Assembly (NCBI GenBank): GCA_007117525.1
Contig: SKGJ01000339.1
Coordinates: 1-10,942 of the forward strand
Length of the DNA stretch: 10,942 nt
Source: Alkalimonas sp.
GTDB lineage: Bacteria; Pseudomonadota; Gammaproteobacteria; Enterobacterales; Alteromonadaceae
Reading direction: 5' to 3'
Below, piece by piece: positions 3,829 through 10,240 of this stretch. Position numbers and translations under genes: made by a program. The notes beneath the pieces are model-generated. The model was not told where the DNA came from. It saw nothing but the letters and a program-made list of their open reading frames with translations, and did not search any database. Within the stretch, counting starts at the first letter, position 1. Each line of letters begins with the position of its first letter.

Positions 3829-4260
3829 TTAACGGGTGCGTGGGCAAACTTCCGCATCGGTAAAGAAGTAGGCGATTTCACGCGCTGCAGACTCTGCAGC
3901 ATCCGAACCATGAACGGCATTCTCGTCAATGCTGTCGGCGTAATCAGCACGCAAAGTGCCAGCCAAGGCATCCTTCGGATTGGTAGCGCCCATGATTTCA
4001 CGGTTTTTGCGAACCGCATCTTCACCTTCCAGTACCTGCACCATCACAGGGCCAGAGGTCATAAAAGCAACCAGAGCACCAAAGAAAGGACGCTCTTTGT
4101 GTTCTGCATAGAAACCTTCAGCCTGTTCTTTGCTCAAGTGTAGCATTTTTGACGCCACAATACGCAGACCTGCAGCTTCAAAGCGCTGATAGATAGCACC
4201 GATCAGATTTTTTGCCACTGCATCTGGTTTAACAATCGAGAAAGTACGTTCTAAGGCCAT
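3829..4260 (-). CDS. ndk: Nucleoside diphosphate kinase
   Basis: Transfers the gamma phosphate from NTPs to NDPs through a phosphohistidine, balancing cytosolic nucleotide pools. The 143-residue length is typical of the family. The N-terminal [15 protein letters not shown] and the active-site segment NAVHGSDA (catalytic His117) are clear, as are the nucleotide-site segment around [17 protein letters not shown] and the conserved RxxMGATNP-type segment ([12 protein letters not shown]). An AAGGAG ribosome site stands about 7 bases before the ATG. It precedes rlmN, as in many gammaproteobacteria, but a hairpin separates them. In Pseudomonas-type genomes the gene just upstream of ndk is the last gene of the isc cluster; here it is instead the terminator of the porin unit. 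Nothing unusual in the protein. Confidence 0.98.
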
Positions 4261-4303
4261 GAAAGGACTCCTTGGTGAGTTGGTTAAATTTTAAAGGCGC
4301 GAA

Positions 4304-4309
4304 ATTATA
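4304..4309 (-). promoter_or_regulatory. -10 element of the ndk promoter
   Basis: On the minus strand a perfect TATAAT lies 44 bases upstream of the ndk start. No good -35 box is found at 16-18 bases (the region is T-rich), so the call rests on the -10 alone. It sits between the porin-unit terminator and ndk, the expected place for an independent ndk promoter. Confidence 0.5.
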
Positions 4310-4352
4310 CGTGATCTGTTGCAAAAAACCTATTTTTTAGCAGATGAGTTTG

Positions 4353-4387
4353 CAAAAAGAAAAAGCTTCCGTCTGGCGGAAGCTTTT
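4353..4387 (-). terminator. Rho-independent terminator of the porin/PstS-like unit
   Basis: A perfect 11-bp stem (AAAAGCTTCCG at 4361-4371, CGGAAGCTTTT at 4377-4387) around a 5-base loop, 23 bases after the stop of the last PstS-like gene. On the minus strand the stem runs into TTTTTCTTTTTG, a good T-tract. It closes the four-gene unit and insulates ndk. Confidence 0.88.
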
Positions 4388-4410
4388 CTAATTGCGAGCA
4401 GGGTAAACGA

Positions 4411-4824
4411 TCAGAAAGTCGCAACGACTCGAACAGTATCGTCAACATCGCTGCTGGCAATGTAGCCGATGGCTGTAGGATCGGCCGCAACAGCCGCCTT
4501 CATGGCAGCCGCATTAGGGTGCTCAGCCGGCGGCGTGCCTTTGCCGGTAAAAACCAGCCGCGACCAATAGGCTTTGAGCTGAGCAGAACTTCGATTCAGC
4601 ACCTGAGTGTCAAAATGCTCACGAGCAGCTTGCCCCTCTGCCAGATTGAGCGGCGTAGCCCTGTTGCCGTCACTAAAGTTGCTACCGCGTCCTAAAAACA
4701 AGCGGTTCAGATCGGACTGGTCCACACTTACCGTATTGGATGGATGCACAATCACCGAAATTTCGGCCAGAGCAGCTCCTGATAACAACAACAAAGCGCC
4801 CAGCATGGCTTTTAGATAGTTCAT
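4411..4824 (-). CDS. Small periplasmic PstS-like protein (half-domain), copy 1
   Basis: A 137-residue exported protein: Sec signal peptide about 1-20 ending ALA, mature part about 117 residues. The mature sequence opens with ISVIVHPSN and continues with a DLNRLFLG block and, near the end, DPTAIGYI. By memory of the phosphate-binding PstS family, these match three family blocks: the AVIVNPSNPVS-type strand, the LKxIFxGKIxNW block and the GAIGYVSxxY block. The N-terminal part with the first anion-binding loop (GSGT/GSTT type) is absent. The second loop, usually xxGSGTREAF, reads AEGQAAREHF, so the Ser-Gly-Thr is missing. Substrate binding is therefore uncertain. A strong AAGGAGG ribosome site overlaps the stop of the porin 9 bases upstream, so the two are co-translated. 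A second, very similar copy lies upstream. Function unproven; a periplasmic partner of the adjacent porin is an inference. Confidence 0.8.
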   Translation of the reverse strand: MNYLKAMLGALLLLSGAALAEISVIVHPSNTVSVDQSDLNRLFLGRGSNFSDGNRATPLNLAEGQAAREHFDTQVLNRSSAQLKAYWSRLVFTGKGTPPAEHPNAAAMKAAVAADPTAIGYIASSDVDDTVRVVATF

Positions 4825-4833
4825 AGCTCCTCC

Positions 4834-5919
4834 TTAGAAAACCAGGTCGATACCGAAAGAAACGGACTTGCTGTCACCAGCAACCTCCCAACCCGGCACC
4901 CCTTTATCATTGACATCATCGTACTGGAATTTAAAGGCAGCATTGGAATGAAAATCCCAGCGCAGTCCCAGACTGGTGGTGTTGTGCTTCTCATTTTCGC
5001 TGTCAAAATCGGCGAACGAAATGTAAGGGGTAAATTGATTAATACGATAACCAGCAGATACCATGTAAGTATCGAACTTGGATCCATCCAGATCGAGCCG
5101 GTTTAACTCAGACAGCAACAACCAGTCACCAAAGTCCATGTTGACTGAGATACCGGCAAACTTACCTCGCCGGGTTAAGGAGTCACCCCAGGTCACCCGC
5201 TCTTCGATACCGTCGATGGTCCGGTAACGCTCATTGATGTAAGTCATGTAGGTCAAGCGAATATCCAGCCAATCCCGGTTCAGGTTGACGACCCCACCAA
5301 CGATATCTTTCCAGATTTCCCGTACCGGTACCGAGCCAAAAAATTGCGACAAGAGTTTGTTTTCTTTGTCATCTTCCCGGCCGGTGTAGATATTGCCGCT
5401 GATGTCCCAGTCACCGACAAAGTAATTAAACATGGCGTTGACACCCGTGTAGTTGAAAATTTGCCAGGTGTAGTTGTCCGCGGGTGGCCGGATCCAGAGG
5501 TAGGCGTAGCCAACATCAAAAAAATCCGAATAATAATACAATGGCAAACGCTTTTTACCGGCTTGCAGCGTCCAGTGATCGTTCAGGTCGTAAGACAGAT
5601 AGGCCCATTCAAAGCGGGCATCAAAGTCATCCGCACCGCGGGCAACCACCTGAGCTGTCGCTGACAAACCATCCATTAGATTGGCACGGAACTGCAAGCC
5701 AAAGCGGGTATCCGGCTTGAAAGTCCATTCTTTTTCGTAGACACCAACCAAAGGGTAATTGGCTAAAAAAGTTGGTGGCAAGTCAAAGGCCTCAACACCT
5801 GAACCACTCAATACCCGCCCGCCAATCACCGAGGCGTAGCCAGAGATATCTACGTTGGCATGTGCCAATGGCTGCATTAGCAAGAGACCCGAGGCCGTCA
5901 CTAGTAAGCTTTTCTTCAT
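4834..5919 (-). CDS. Porin-like outer-membrane beta-barrel protein, copy 1
   Basis: Probably a diffusion channel in the outer membrane; substrate unknown. A 361-residue precursor has a Sec signal peptide about 1-21 ending AHA, then NVDISGYASV and many alternating aromatic/hydrophobic strands, ending in a C-terminal Phe (GIDLVF), the usual outer-membrane barrel insertion signal. Segments shared with the second porin of the unit are DDFDARFEWAYLSYDL (about 97-112), SDFFDVGYAYLWIRPP (131-146), GDWLLLSELNRLDL (264-277) and LGLRWDFHSNAAFKFQY (317-333). It carries an AGGAG ribosome site and is preceded by a PstS-like gene (17-base gap) and followed by another (9-base gap). No cysteines and no transporter-specific motif seen. 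It may belong to a phosphate- or oxyanion-related porin group given its partner, but this is not shown by the sequence. Confidence 0.82.
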   Translation of the reverse strand: MKKSLLVTASGLLLMQPLAHANVDISGYASVIGGRVLSGSGVEAFDLPPTFLANYPLVGVYEKEWTFKPDTRFGLQFRANLMDGLSATAQVVARGADDFDARFEWAYLSYDLNDHWTLQAGKKRLPLYYYSDFFDVGYAYLWIRPPADNYTWQIFNYTGVNAMFNYFVGDWDISGNIYTGREDDKENKLLSQFFGSVPVREIWKDIVGGVVNLNRDWLDIRLTYMTYINERYRTIDGIEERVTWGDSLTRRGKFAGISVNMDFGDWLLLSELNRLDLDGSKFDTYMVSAGYRINQFTPYISFADFDSENEKHNTTSLGLRWDFHSNAAFKFQYDDVNDKGVPGWEVAGDSKSVSFGIDLVF

Positions 5920-5936
5920 TATGCTCTCCTGTTCAA

Positions 5937-6356
5937 CTAATCCAGCTGCATCACGACTCGGACACGATCGTCCGCTTGCGATGCCGGCAGATAGCCGATA
6001 ATGCTGGGGTTGGTGGCTACCAATTTAAGAACTTCTTCGTGGCTTTCCGCCTCCTGCGGTGGCGTCCCTTTGCCGGTAAAGACCAGTTTGGACCAATAGG
6101 CTTTTAACTGAGCTGAACTTCGGCTCAAAGCCCGCTCATCAAAACGTTCTCTGGCAGGCATGCCTTCTGCCAGGTTAATTGGAATGGCCGAGTCGCCATT
6201 GGGGAAAGTCCGACTTCGCCCGAGATACAGACGCGAGAGGTCGTCGCCACTTAACTCTGCCATATTGGACGGATGCACCACGATGGCCAGCGGCTCCGCA
6301 TGCAAGGCCGAAGCACTTAGCAGGGCAATGGCCATAATCAGAGTTCGAATACGCAT
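5937..6356 (-). CDS. Small periplasmic PstS-like protein (half-domain), copy 2
   Basis: A 139-residue exported protein with a Sec signal peptide about 1-20 ending LHA. It is a clear paralogue of the other small PstS-like protein: both have VHPSN, a DL-x-RL-x-LGR block, NLAEG, the 11-residue run RSSAQLKAYWS and, one residue later, LVFTGKGTPP, then IGY near the end and RVRVV/VRVV at the C-terminus. As in that copy, the protein starts at what is the second lobe in full-length PstS, and the expected anion loop is replaced (AEGMPARERF where PstS-type proteins have a GSGTREAF-like loop). An AGGAG ribosome site overlaps the stop of the preceding porin gene (9-base gap). Co-transcription with both porins is likely. 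A real ligand could be phosphate, another anion or none. Confidence 0.8.
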   Translation of the reverse strand: MRIRTLIMAIALLSASALHAEPLAIVVHPSNMAELSGDDLSRLYLGRSRTFPNGDSAIPINLAEGMPARERFDERALSRSSAQLKAYWSKLVFTGKGTPPQEAESHEEVLKLVATNPSIIGYLPASQADDRVRVVMQLD

Positions 6357-6365
6357 AACCTGCTC

Positions 6366-7496
6366 CTAAAACACGATGTCGACGCCAGCAGCGATCAAAT
6401 CGTGTCGGTGACCCGACAAATCATTTTTCTGGCTGCTGTACTGCACCTTAAAAGCAGCAGCTGGATGAAAATCGTAGCGCAGCCCCAGATTCCAGGTTTT
6501 GGTATCCACCGCCTGGCTTTCCACCACCGCCATCAGAGGTTGCAATAACGCCTCTGGCAGCACGCTGATAAAAGGTTGGTACAGCTCTGATTTGCTGCGA
6601 TGATCTTCGCGCTCGTAGGAAACAAAGGGCGTGACAACATCCAGCCGATAACCCAAAGACAGGTAGTAGTTTTCACGCTTGGCAAAGAAAGAGTCTTTGA
6701 CATCAATCCGGTTGTACTCGGTAATCAGAACCCAATCGCCCTGATCCAAGGTCACACCCAAGCCAATGAATTCGCTGGTATCGTCATTAAAATCCAATGC
6801 AGCAACCAGTCCACCCAATCCCGCCTGAGACAAACCGGCAAAAAGCGGCGATAACGCCGGAGCCTCAATGGTCGATTTACCGTTCAGGTAAGCTGCCCGA
6901 AACGAGAACCAGTCACGCTCCAGCTCCCAGGTGATGCCTGCGATATTATCAATGCGCGCATTGGCCGAGTTGCCAGCCAGGGTAATACCGCCGCTAAAGG
7001 AGCCCCACAGCAATTGCAAACTGGATTCAAAGTCACCCAGCTGCGCCATCCGGTACAGGGAAACGCCCTCAATATTGTCGAGCCCAAGGCCATAGACACC
7101 TTGAGGGACCCTGAGCCAGTCGTAGGCAAAACCGACATCCATAAAATCGGAAAAACGGTAAAAAGGCGTTCGGAGCCGGCCGGCGTTAATCCGCATGGCA
7201 TCGGTCAACTCGTAAGTCAGGAAAGCCCACTCAAAGCGGGCATCAAAATCGTTGCTGCCACGTCCCATCACTTGAGCGGTAACGGATAAACGGTCGCCTA
7301 AATCCGAGCGCACCTGAATGGCAAACAAACTTTCGTTTTTAAAGTCCAGCTCGTTGCTGTAACCATACAGCTGGTCGTTGCTGCCGGTAGTGGTACCTGC
7401 TGTGATGGAGGCAAAGCCATTGATATGCAGATCAGCCTGGACCGGTAAAGCAAAAGCGAACGATAAAGCACTGACGGCGAGAAGGGATTTTCTCAT
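6366..7496 (-). CDS. Porin-like outer-membrane beta-barrel protein, copy 2 (first gene of the unit)
   Basis: A 376-residue precursor with a Sec signal peptide about 1-21 ending VQA, then DLHINGFASI and a beta-rich barrel ending in Phe (GVDIVF). It is paralogous to the other porin: NDFDARFEWAFLTYEL, SDFMDVGFAYDWLRVP, GDWVLITEYNRIDV and LGLRYDFHPAAAFKVQY match block for block. An upstream in-frame GTG at 7505 is rejected as start because the only ribosome site, GGAG at 7508-7505, runs into that codon and stands 8 bases before the ATG at 7496. A loop region at about 208-240 (rich in Ala, Leu and Gly) has no counterpart in copy 1. The promoter should lie between the iscS terminator and the start; only weak boxes are seen (TAGGCT on the minus strand at 7549-7544, CTGGCG 17 bases upstream). 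No Pho-box-like repeat was found. Substrate unknown. Confidence 0.82.
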   Translation of the reverse strand: MRKSLLAVSALSFAFALPVQADLHINGFASITAGTTTGSNDQLYGYSNELDFKNESLFAIQVRSDLGDRLSVTAQVMGRGSNDFDARFEWAFLTYELTDAMRINAGRLRTPFYRFSDFMDVGFAYDWLRVPQGVYGLGLDNIEGVSLYRMAQLGDFESSLQLLWGSFSGGITLAGNSANARIDNIAGITWELERDWFSFRAAYLNGKSTIEAPALSPLFAGLSQAGLGGLVAALDFNDDTSEFIGLGVTLDQGDWVLITEYNRIDVKDSFFAKRENYYLSLGYRLDVVTPFVSYEREDHRSKSELYQPFISVLPEALLQPLMAVVESQAVDTKTWNLGLRYDFHPAAAFKVQYSSQKNDLSGHRHDLIAAGVDIVF

Positions 7497-7581
7497 TGAT
7501 TTCACTCCGAAAAAAATAATGGTTTTAACGGGGAACTTTTTTTAGCCTAGCTGAGGCCTGAGAAAACGCCAGTATGCGCAT

Positions 7582-7615
7582 CAAAAAAGCCAGCGTAAAT
7601 CAAGGCGCTGGCTTT
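7582..7615 (-). terminator. Rho-independent terminator directly behind iscS
   Basis: A perfect 10-bp stem (AAAGCCAGCG at 7586-7595, CGCTGGCTTT at 7606-7615) with a 10-base loop. On the minus strand it ends in a run of six T, then GA. It lies 79 bases after the iscS stop and ends the iscRS message before the porin unit, so nothing further downstream belongs to the isc transcript. Confidence 0.88.
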
Positions 7616-7694
7616 ATCATGAAGATAAAATTCAATTTTTGTCACAAAAAAAACACAAACCACTCCAGCTGTCTACAGCTCGACCGGTCTTTTG

Positions 7695-8867
7695 TCAGCT
7701 GTGTTGCCACAAGGATGGCGAAGCACGCAAATGGCCGATGGCCGATGTGACCACTGCTATGGTGTGATCGATATCCGCCTCCGTGGTATAGCGACCAAGA
7801 CTAAAGCGAATCGAACTGTGCGCCAGCGCATCCGACACCCCCAAAGCACGCAGCACATGAGACGGGTCCAGGCTGGCCGAGGTGCAGGCTGAGCCGGTGG
7901 ATACCGCAATGTCCTTCAGTGCCATCAACAGTGTTTCGCCATCCACCTGACCAAAAGCGATATTGAGAATTCCGGGAACCCGCTGTTGGCTGTCGCCATT
8001 CAGAAACACCTGCTCAATCGAACTCAGCCCCAGCCACAAGCGCTGGCGTAACCGCTCCAGCCGTTGTGTTTCGTCCGCCATTTCTTCACGAGCAATCCGA
8101 AAAGCTTCGCCCATACCCACCAGCTGATGACTGGCCAAAGTACCGGAGCGCATGCCTCGCTCATGACCGCCGCCATGGATTTGCGCTGCCAGCTGGATAC
8201 GCGGCTTGCGCCGTACATAGAGAGCACCAACACCTTTGGGCCCATACACTTTATGCGCCGAGAAGGACATCAGATCGACCGGCAGTTGCTGCACATCGAT
8301 GGCCACTTTGCCAGCGGCCTGGGCGGCATCAACATGGAGCAAAACACCGTTTTGCTGACAAATTTCAGCCAGGCTGACCATGTCCTGAATCACGCCAATT
8401 TCATTGTTGACGAACATCACACTGAGCAGGATGGTGTCCGGCCGAATCGCCGCCCTGACGGTGGCCAGATCCAACAAACCATTGGCAGCCACATCCAGAT
8501 AAGTGACTTCAAATCCCTCGGCTTCCAACGCTTGCATCGGATCCAGCACCGCTTTGTGCTCGGTTTTCACAGTGATTAAATGCTTGCCGCGGCTGGCGTA
8601 GCTTTGTGCCGCGCCTTTGATAGCCAGGTTATTGGACTCGGTGGCCCCTGACGTCCAGACGATTTCTCTGGGATCGGCATTGATCAGCTCAGCGACCTGA
8701 CTGCGCGCCAGCTCCACCGCTTCTTCGGCTTGCCAGCCATAGCGATGCGAACGTGAGGCCGGGTTGCCGAAGTGACCATCAAAGGTCAGGTACTGCATCA
8801 TGCTATCGGCCACGCGCTGATCGACAGGCGTGGTGGCGGCATAATCCAGGTAGATGGGACGTTTCAT
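7695..8867 (-). CDS. iscS: Cysteine desulfurase IscS
   Basis: PLP enzyme that takes sulfur from L-cysteine as a persulfide and hands it to Fe-S scaffolds, TusA, ThiI and other acceptors. The sequence aligns without gaps to E. coli IscS from the start ([16 protein letters not shown]). PLP-stacking His104 (KTEHKAV), the Schiff-base Lys206 ([10 protein letters not shown]), [13 protein letters not shown] and the persulfide Cys328 ([10 protein letters not shown]) are all in place. It ends SPSLWQHS at residue 390, three residues past the Trp aligned with E. coli Trp387, whereas E. coli continues to 404. The missing tail belongs to the region implicated in IscU binding. The gene follows iscR by 26 bases and is ended by a terminator, with no iscU, iscA, hscBA or fdx behind it. 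The ribosome site is weak (GGAA). The IscS assignment rather than SufS/NifS is firm from sequence and iscR linkage. Confidence 0.97.
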
Positions 8868-8893: not shown

Positions 8894-9370
8894 TTAGAGC
8901 TGGCAGTTTACCTGAATACTGTGCTCGGATGAAGCTGGGCCAGCTTTGGCGTTGGCTTTGTCGTCAGCATCGTTTTGCGTCACCAGCTCAGCCAGAGTGA
9001 TGCTGGTCAGAAAGTCTTCAATCCGCTGACTTAAGTCACTCCACAAACTATGGGTTTGGCAACGGACGCCGCCATGGCAATCCGACTTGCCCTGGCAGCG
9101 GGTGGCATCGATCGATTCATCCACCGCACTGATCACTTCAGCCACGGCAATGGTATCGGCAGCACGACCCAGCTGGTAACCGCCACCCGGGCCGCGCACA
9201 CTGCTCACCAGGCCACGTTTGCGCAGACGGGCAAATAGCTGCTCCAGATAGGACAAGGAGATGCCCTGACGCTCCGAAATATCGGCCAGGGATACCGGAC
9301 CCTTGTTGTGATGCAGGGCGACATCCAACATGGCCGTGACGGCGTAGCGCCCCTTTGACGTTAATCTCAT
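8894..9370 (-). CDS. iscR: Fe-S cluster-sensing transcriptional repressor IscR
   Basis: Rrf2-family dimeric DNA-binding regulator of Fe-S cluster biogenesis genes. With its [2Fe-2S] cluster it represses its own operon at type 1 sites; without it, it still acts at type 2 sites. The protein starts [19 protein letters not shown], as in E. coli, so the ATG at 9370 (GGAG 7 bases upstream) is chosen over an upstream in-frame ATG at 9403. The winged-helix region includes [22 protein letters not shown] and [11 protein letters not shown]. The cluster ligands Cys92, Cys98, Cys104 and His107 ([13 protein letters not shown]) are all present, so cluster sensing should be intact. The C-terminal tail (after about residue 132) is variable, as usual. 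Length 158 residues. It lies between trmJ and iscS, the standard gammaproteobacterial order. Confidence 0.98.
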
Positions 9371-9420: not shown

Positions 9421-9448
9421 ATTGTACATTCCCGACTATTTCAGTCAA
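9421..9448 (-). promoter_or_regulatory. Sigma-70 promoter of iscRS
   Basis: Minus strand: -35 TTGACT (9448-9443), 16-base spacer, -10 TACAAT (9426-9421), giving a leader of roughly 45 bases before the iscR ATG. The -35 and most of the spacer lie inside the IscR operator, the arrangement expected for autorepression. Confidence 0.85.
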
Positions 9449-9452
9449 GTAT
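9428..9452 (-). promoter_or_regulatory. IscR type 1 binding site
   Basis: The two half-sites read ATACTTGACT and AGTCGGGAAT around the centre GAAAT on the minus strand. Compared with the E. coli type 1 consensus as I recall it (ATASYYGACTRWWWYAGTCRRSTAT), 24 of 25 positions agree, the one mismatch being A for T at position 23. Directly upstream, at 9477-9468, ATACCTGACC resembles a further half-site, in step with a 25-base tandem arrangement, but its other half is not conserved. Confidence 0.88.
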
Positions 9453-9495: not shown

Positions 9496-10215
9496 CTAGC
9501 GAATACGCTTTTGCACCGAAGTCAGCATGCCACGCAGGATATTGTATTCAGCTTCTTCAGGCCGCGCCCGGTTGAACAAACGCCGCAACTTGGTCATCAC
9601 CATCCCAGGGTGTTGCCGGATGATAAAGCCGCTTTGATCCAGCGTCTGCTCCAGATGTTGGTAGAAGTTTTCCATCTGGCTGGAGTCCGGGTAGGCAACC
9701 GGCTCCAGAGGCTGAACCGCCTGCTCCTGGGCCAGTGCCGCCATTCGGACTTCGTAGGCGATAATTTGCACCGCCATCGCCAGATTGAGCGAGCTGTACT
9801 CTGGATTGGCCGGAATGCAGACATGGTAATTGCAAAGTTGCAATTCGTCGTTGCTCAGTCCGCTGCTTTCGCGGCCAAACACCAGCGCCACCTGATGACT
9901 GTGCGCTTCCTGCACCGCCAGCTCTCCCAGCGAGCGCGGCTCCAACATCGGCCAGGAAAGTGTGCGTGAGCGGGCACTGGTGCCGACTACCAAACCACAA
10001 TCAGCCACCGCCGGGCCCAAAGCGTCGAAGTGCTCTGCTTCGCTGAGCAGTTCACTGGCTCCGGCGGCCAGCGCATAAGCCTGCCCGTCCACTTCCGCCT
10101 TGGGCTGCACCAGACAAAGGCGACTCAGCCCCATGGTTTTCATGGCTCTGGCGACCGAGCCGATGTTTCCGCTGTGGGAGGTTCCCACCAACACAATTTT
10201 GATTTGTTCCAGCAT
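9496..10215 (-). CDS. trmJ: tRNA (cytidine/uridine-32-2'-O)-methyltransferase TrmJ
   Basis: SPOUT-class, SAM-dependent methyltransferase making Cm32/Um32 in tRNA anticodon loops. The protein has 239 residues from the ATG at 10215 (AGGG about 6 bases upstream), matching the E. coli start MLQNIRIVLV; the longer form would need a TTG start at 10233. Family blocks are [19 protein letters not shown] (12-30), [16 protein letters not shown] (76-91), [16 protein letters not shown] (110-125) and the SAM-knot segment [17 protein letters not shown] (134-150). The C-terminal extension typical of bacterial TrmJ is complete and ends with [15 protein letters not shown]. It is upstream of iscR as in E. coli, separated by a 125-base region carrying the iscR promoter. 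No terminator is seen after trmJ, so some read-through into iscR is possible. Confidence 0.97.
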
Positions 10216-10240
10216 AGCGTACCCTTTGTTCAAGGTCGCA

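Follow-up and report, generated by a model that had tools for sequence, protein, structure and literature searches.

Loss of the iscUA-hscBA-fdx block beside a retained, shortened iscS in an Alkalimonas lineage, with parallels in other genera of its family

The window analyzed here is the whole 10,942-nt contig SKGJ01000339.1 (contig 341) of a metagenome-assembled genome (MAG; GCA_007117525.1) of the alkaliphile Alkalimonas (Alteromonadaceae). On the basis of sequence, profiles, and synteny, its minus strand reads trmJ-iscR-iscS-porin-PstSL-porin-PstSL-ndk-rlmN-pilF-rodZ, where PstSL denotes a small PstS-like protein, and none of the ISC (iron-sulfur cluster) genes iscU, iscA, hscB, hscA, and fdx lies between iscS and ndk. 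A deletion removed iscU-iscA-hscB-hscA-fdx between iscS and an older porin/PstSL unit in this Alkalimonas lineage. In other genera of the family, the SUF (sulfur mobilization) system is likewise present, the iscU block is gone, iscS is kept, its C-terminal tail is gone in nearly all cases, and the frataxin gene cyaY was not found. Very probably, SUF took over cluster assembly and IscS became a TusA-directed sulfur donor, repeatedly shedding its IscU dock.

Deletion of the isc block next to an older porin unit

Six members of the genus were compared: the window's own MAG (G000; 2.09 Mb, 72% complete), its sister MAG Super_Day4_Bin.20 (G001; 81% complete), A. collagenimarina (G002), MAG Super_Day4_Bin.14 (G003), G004, and A. 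amylolytica (G005); below, G-numbers label genomes, g-numbers genera, and L-numbers fetched loci. In G002, G003, and G005, the gene order is trmJ-(cysE)-iscR-iscS-iscU-iscA-hscB-hscA-fdx-porin-PstSL-porin-PstSL-ndk, with hscB and cysE confirmed by profiles. A complete isc block followed by the porins and ndk was found in 10 of the 62 loci fetched with porin 2 of the window as the query, namely those of G005, G003, and G002 (L064, L070, and L121, respectively), six Rheinheimera records (L068, L071, L072, L074, L075, and L120), and a Gammaproteobacteria MAG (L078), which together with the Rheinheimera records makes seven Rheinheimera-type loci. Most of the other loci obtained with this query contained a porin next to a PstSL gene and no gene from the isc region. 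Because the porin unit follows an intact isc block in the relatives, it is ancestral at this site, and the segment deleted beside this old neighbor was therefore approximately 3.5 kb, the length of iscU-iscA-hscB-hscA-fdx in A. amylolytica.

The original prediction, made from the window alone, was that both flanks are ancestral and that the scaffold, chaperone, and ferredoxin genes between them were replaced by an unrelated envelope module. Synteny with the relatives bears out the flanks, and the genes are indeed gone from the site and were also not found elsewhere in the two incomplete MAGs. Replacement is contradicted by the relatives, in which porin/PstSL already stood between fdx and ndk before the deletion. 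A loss of iscX, which had been included in the missing block, is likewise contradicted by the congeners: in G002, G003, and G005, there is no coding-strand open reading frame of at least 60 amino acids between fdx and the porin gene. IscU is encoded beside iscS in all four of the other genus genomes, which excludes the possibility that close relatives never had iscU here.

Alignment with G002, G003, and G005 places the deletion scar, with approximate ends, at 7613..7706 (minus strand), from the end of iscS, whose last codons it overlaps, to just before a conserved pre-porin stretch. That stretch (7530..7612, minus strand), conserved in the congeners, includes a terminator-like hairpin recognized by reading the sequence and absent from the terminator-scan list. 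A frameshifted match to the iscS tail within the scar (2000 shuffles each: P = 0.0075 against the A. amylolytica tail and P = 0.0985 against that of A. collagenimarina) is suggestive of a degraded relic. The same iscS-porin junction occurs in G000 and G001, which overlap over 5302 bases at 97.7% identity. Chance is not an issue for the gap, since the junction is present in two assemblies and gaps of this type also occur in further genera.

Iron-sulfur genes elsewhere in the genus

The IscU domain (PF01592) had no match in G000 or G001. HscA (TIGR01991) matched above the cut-off in G002, G003, and G005 and in neither of these two MAGs; G004 has a 303-residue partial HscA match adjoining an Fdx match on contig 309. 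A Fer2 match with the 115-residue frame of the isc-site Fdx was found once in each of G002 to G005 and not in G000 or G001, while other Fer2 proteins were present in all six genomes. Frataxin (cyaY) was not found in G000 or G001, both of which are incomplete.

The original prediction that such a cell would need SUF or another scaffold agrees with the detection of suf genes in both MAGs. Contig C50 of G001 carries the operon sufB-C-D-S-A-T-E, in which SufB, C, D, S, and T exceed an NCBIfam cut-off, and SufA and SufE are best matches below the cut-offs of those models (SufA exceeds TIGR00049). Contig C195 of G000 carries sufB and part of sufC at the contig end. A. collagenimarina (G002; 100% complete) is the only one of the six genus members searched that lacks a SufB/D match; the genus thus has ISC-only, ISC-plus-SUF, and SUF-only members, the last being the two incomplete MAGs.

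The retained IscS has lost its C-terminal dock

The window's iscS (7695..8867, minus strand) encodes a cysteine desulfurase of 390 residues that scores 658.9 against NF010611, the NCBIfam IscS-subfamily model (cut-off 548), and 638.1 against TIGR02006, slightly below that model's cut-off of 643.2. As predicted, iscS is kept beside the gap; it is not intact, however, as the protein has 390 residues instead of 404; the last 14 are gone, and those before them are altered. Following W387, the sequence QHS-stop stands where the 17-residue IscU-docking end would be. The solved structure of E. coli IscS, 1p3w_B, aligns with it gap-free to residue 388. The lysine that binds pyridoxal phosphate (K206) and the catalytic C328 are kept, and the C-terminal helix and tail (379–404) characteristic of an IscU partner are not. 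At the TusA-contact positions W45, E49, D52, and D65, the window has W, E, E, and D; E52 is also found in 7 of the 36 IscU-containing genomes. For iscS, the ratio of nonsynonymous to synonymous divergence (dN/dS) between the window and G001 is 0.105, based on 16 nucleotide differences.

In E. coli, IscU contacts IscS at residues 309–316, 347, the end of helix 11, and 379–391 (Shi et al. 2010, PMC2854127), and IscS lacking 376–404 does not bind IscU (cited in PMC2854127).

Shortened IscS across the family

Among 295 genomes of the family, 231 had an IscU match and 78 a SufB/D match. Comparing the match lists by eye, we counted 15 genomes with both, 63 with SUF alone, 216 with IscU alone, and 1 with neither; in two of the 15, G093 and G234, all IscU hits are weak and iscS has no adjacent iscU. 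IscS was searched for in 80 genomes, including 61 of the SUF-alone genomes, the other two of which are G000 and G001, and 101 loci were available overall. All 63 SUF-alone genomes have an IscS match, with trmJ within the fetched stretch in 54 and iscR in 49. No gene of the iscU-A-hscB-A-fdx block was seen at 62 of these 63 iscS loci. At the remaining one (G261; L135), hscB still lies between iscS and ndk though IscU was not found, making G261 a possible intermediate in operon loss. G025, considered as another half-lost operon, was rejected because its locus holds 13001 masked bases.

The next recognized gene after iscS is ndk in g3 (in G261, hscB comes first), g11, g12, g17, g29, g58, and g68, where the unannotated iscS-ndk gaps reach approximately 950 bases; sufB in g25 and g20; and a convergent sufE in g15 and g75. 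No recognized gene follows in G010 (g6) or G075 (g71).

From position 372 onward, IscS has 33 residues in all 36 genomes with iscU beside it and 10–22 in 60 of 62 genomes without IscU. In G234 the tail has 28 residues, and in G024 (the 63rd SUF-alone genome) and G093, both outside the tail alignment, IscS has 380 and 387 residues. Five genera (g1, g3, g11, g12, and g29) contain both IscU states. Since accelerated IscS rows would attract each other, no IscS-based tree was used; a tree of TrmJ, RlmN, and Ndk was built from 89 of the 101 loci, 36 of them with less than half of the columns filled. On this tree, many branches of which are weak, the fewest changes needed were 13 or 15 for the IscU state and 12 for the tail state. 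The one IscU-containing genome of g11 falls inside rows without IscU, so g11 may hold several losses or a regain.

Sites and partners that changed with IscU loss

We scored the 177 sites invariant in the 36 IscU-associated proteins in 63 others (G234 included; G024 and G093 excluded), in which the mean share kept was 0.883. The four active-site residues were kept in 63/63 (P = 0.044 for higher retention), as were the three TusA contacts (P = 0.098). The share kept was 0.684 at the IscU-side sites (309–316, 346, and 347; nine usable; P = 0.006) and 0.671 at the eight CyaY/IscX sites (P = 0.007). Averaging by genus (13 genera) gave 1.0 for both the active site and the TusA contacts, 0.712 for the IscU side (P = 0.013), 0.637 for the CyaY/IscX sites (P = 0.003), and 0.645 for the ThiI-contact sites (P = 0.008).

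Within genera, the median IscS/TrmJ distance ratio was 0.50 for 18 pairs with IscU, 1.20 for 59 mixed pairs, and 1.34 for 172 pairs without IscU, and the corresponding IscS/RlmN medians were 0.81 (10 pairs), 2.00 (45), and 3.12 (133); pairs less than 3% apart in the yardstick protein were excluded, and the pairs are not independent. The shift is small in g3 (IscS/TrmJ 0.51, 0.59, and 0.76). Judged from these sequences, IscS evolves faster after IscU loss yet keeps the catalytic and TusA-contact residues examined.

CyaY and TusA were searched for in 80 of the 101 genomes, with G093 and G234 counted among those without iscU. The unlinked cyaY gene was found in 33 of 33 genomes with iscU beside iscS versus 0 of 47 others. 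TusA was found in 79 of the 80, the sole miss being G000. With the TusA contacts kept as well, the suggestion in the original prediction that IscS serves tRNA thiolation is plausible; given this conservation and known E. coli biology, IscS likely serves TusA-dependent transfer.

IscR and putative operator sites at suf

The window's iscR (8894..9370, minus strand; start set at ATG 9370) encodes an Rrf2-type regulator scoring 220.2 bits against TIGR02010 (cut-off 207.55) and 247.3 against NF008110 (below the cut-off of 275), and alignment shows an intact CX5CX5CX2H cluster-ligand region. Using the IscR type-1 consensus, we identified a type-1-like operator upstream of iscR at 9428..9452 with one mismatch (0 in 200 shuffles). 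In a scan covering all 101 loci, a type-1-like site was present upstream of iscR in 34 of 36 loci with IscU. With up to three mismatches allowed, such sites also stood upstream of sufB in 5/5 Alkalimonas suf loci, 14/15 g25 loci, and 12/20 further suf loci; the six g15/g75 loci, in which the sequence stops at sufB, do not bear on this count.

Fifteen loci have no iscR beside iscS, and the suf locus was fetched for nine of them. In five (G016, G149, G021, G075, and G234), an iscR-like gene 61–70% identical to that of the window lies upstream of sufB. No such gene lies there in the other four, all g11 (G087, G148, G264, and G309), the rest of whose genomes was not searched. In G007 and G261, an iscR-like gene occurs both beside iscS and upstream of sufB. 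IscR thus tends to go with SUF. Since the ligand region is kept and type-1-like sites precede both iscR and sufB, IscR probably also regulates SUF, which speaks against the earlier notion that the remaining iscRS operon can only supply sulfur. Within g11, the loci without iscR beside iscS are L137, L159, L168, L169, L179, L182, L184, L187, L188, and L189; in G087 and G309, type-1-like sites are still present upstream of sufB despite the lack of iscR at either position.

A proposed course of events and its weak points

In the course of events that we propose, SUF, with SufS-SufE as its own sulfur donor, would have taken over Fe-S cluster assembly, making IscU, the chaperones, the ferredoxin, and frataxin dispensable. 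IscS was presumably retained for other pathways that continue to depend on it, chiefly TusA-dependent tRNA thiolation, and IscR probably stayed because it now controls SUF through the type-1-like sites. Freed from IscU and CyaY, IscS would have dropped the C-terminal dock, and its residues facing these two partners would have drifted, while the active site and the TusA face stayed fixed. The likely order is that SUF was acquired first (15 genomes have both systems), that the isc block and cyaY were lost next, and that the tail went last, because G007 and G261, which have no iscU or cyaY match, retain it. We also lean, with less assurance, toward a stronger form of this proposal, in which the tail is a dedicated and discardable IscU dock; the dock, the IscU/CyaY-facing residues, and cyaY were shed in concert at each handover to SUF under selection keeping IscS as a TusA-directed donor; and tail length alone predicts ISC use in the family.

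Several observations weigh against this account. G007 and G261 (both g3) lack IscU and yet keep a 33-residue tail. Only five independent pairs lie on strongly supported branches; the tail follows IscU in about four of them, opposes it in none, and shows no difference in about one (sign test, median P = 0.125). Three sites make up the TusA test, and their full retention is not significantly above that of other invariant sites. The six ThiI-contact sites are relaxed too (share kept 0.688; P = 0.022), in part owing to their overlap with the CyaY site, and retention thus does not extend to every contact for tRNA thiolation. In the work of Shi et al. (2010, PMC2854127), IscU binding persisted in the single mutants L386R and M389R, and loss of 388–404 might therefore weaken docking rather than abolish it. 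No type-1-like site was found upstream of sufB in 8 of the 20 separately fetched loci, in G242 (g25), or in either of two g20 loci, although in six of those eight, an iscR-like gene lies upstream of sufB and the site would fall outside the scanned stretch. Finally, neither MAG is complete, and TusA went undetected in G000 itself, although its sister G001 has it.

Other explanations

IscS could instead have been re-assigned to SUF, feeding SufE/SufBCD and losing its tail through an exchange of acceptors while its Fe-S work continued. Such a role would fit the neighborhoods in which sufBCDSA-T(-E) follows iscS (g25 and g20) or a suf gene is the convergent neighbor (g15/g75). However, the linked suf loci have their own sufS, G001 carries sufS together with a SufE-like gene, no suf neighbor of iscS was detected in the remaining IscU-less genera, and the TusA-contact residues were kept in every protein examined; we regard re-assignment as unlikely.

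With G000 72% and G001 81% complete, the block might have moved rather than been lost, leaving iscU-hscBA-fdx in an unassembled part of the genome. This is quite improbable: both MAGs lack IscU, HscA above its cut-off, Fdx of the isc-site type, and the unlinked cyaY, and the window IscS shows the tail loss typical of IscU-less genomes together with accelerated divergence.

A misassembly or chimera joining iscS to the porin unit is conceivable for short MAG contigs with porin-PstSL paralogues nearby. It is very unlikely, since the junction recurs in the second assembly across the overlap described above, both of its sides are colinear with the congeners, and in each MAG the contig continues past the altered end of iscS. 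There is equally little to recommend the idea that iscS is a decaying gene without a remaining role, as tail loss and fast divergence might suggest, given its open reading frame, intact catalytic residues, dN/dS of 0.105, and match in every SUF-alone genome. An insertion of the envelope module displacing the isc genes, to which the filled interval of the window taken by itself could point, is refuted by synteny, with an intact fdx preceding the module in A. amylolytica, A. collagenimarina, MAG Bin.14, and the seven Rheinheimera-type loci.

Relation to known systems

The ISC operon iscRSUA-hscBA-fdx is known from E. coli and is present here in A. amylolytica. With this operon, the window shares iscR and iscS at the ancestral site and a type-1-like IscR site; it differs in that the genes for the scaffold, the A-type carrier, the chaperones, and the ferredoxin are deleted, the IscS tail is gone, and the unlinked cyaY was not found.

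The nearest published case that we found is Mycobacterium tuberculosis, in which a lone iscS accompanies a complete SUF system and tRNA thiolation is mentioned as a possible role (PMC10848736). That organism belongs to a different phylum; the term "C-terminal" is absent from the main text of PMC10848736, which accordingly offers no analysis of the tail, and its passages on the lone gene do not compare it with near relatives that have retained the operon. Most bacteria are described as having one system, mostly SUF (PMC11559095). ISC and SUF have been reported as mutually exclusive in Gammaproteobacteria, with ISC lost in Alphaproteobacteria (PMC10631705); as there, the lineages studied here run ISC or SUF and seldom both, but here the ISC desulfurase is kept at its site and reshaped, repeatedly within one family. 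That cyaY accompanies iscU, and occurs only with it, is already known (PMC4440780), and what is seen here instead is that, between close relatives, the presence or absence of cyaY tracks the loss of the isc block. The E. coli IscS-IscU and IscS-TusA complexes (PMC2854127) define the IscU dock (309–316, 347, and helix 379–391) and the TusA site by means of laboratory mutants, whereas the truncations at a similar place here are natural. We found no report of IscS tail loss accompanying IscU loss in the open-access literature, subscription papers being mostly outside its scope.

IscS is a hub that passes sulfur to many partners, whose demands are hard to separate. Among these close relatives, a natural experiment in which IscU, the chaperones, the ferredoxin, and frataxin are removed and IscS is kept has been repeated, and its outcome is a residue-level map of what each IscS partner may need. 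The pattern supports the idea that frataxin in bacteria acts solely with ISC, and the length of the IscS tail offers a simple sequence marker of the Fe-S machinery in genomes of this family. The intermediates (the genomes with both systems, and the two in which IscU is gone and the tail present) make the order of loss testable.

Flanking genes and the porin unit

The predicted gene order and identities were confirmed by sequence and profiles. The ancestral left flank, in the usual family order trmJ-(cysE)-iscR-iscS, begins with trmJ (9496..10233, minus strand; NCBIfam NF011694, 357 bits, cut-off 280), which is also supported by synteny. The ancestral right flank, ndk-rlmN-pilF-rodZ, starts with ndk (3829..4260, minus strand; NF001908, 220.4 bits, cut-off 155; synteny); the names of rlmN, pilF, and rodZ come from sequence and synteny rather than from profiles. 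Between the flanks lie, all on the minus strand, porin 1 (6366..7505; Porin_4, PF13609, 55.3 bits), the ancestral neighbor downstream of fdx, which occupies the same place in the congeners; PstS-like protein 1 (5937..6356), without a Pfam or NCBIfam match and named as a paralogue of the second; porin 2 (4834..5919; Porin_4, PF13609, 38.8 bits); and PstS-like protein 2 (4411..4824), the only one of the two with a PstS-family match, a weak one to TIGR02136 (E = 1.2e-5; 24.7 bits against a cut-off of 206.6). The proteins encoded at 4411..4824 and 5937..6356 have 137 and 139 residues, and neither matched a Pfam family at an E-value of 0.01.

Porin genes with a gene for a small PstS-like protein after them seem to form a recurrent two-gene unit. 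Records of Shewanella, Pseudoalteromonas, and Colwellia contain such a pair as well, and G000 and G001 each have a further porin-PstSL-like pair directly upstream of the suf operon (L126:550-2095 and L127:6750-8295; named from sequence). Between the window and the sister MAG, the synonymous divergence (dS) of trmJ, iscR, iscS, and the first PstS-like gene is only 0.02–0.05. Porin 1 (6366..7505 versus L031:728-1864) differs at 66 of 1137 bases with a dS of 0.25, an excess that suggests recombination or a hypervariable porin allele.

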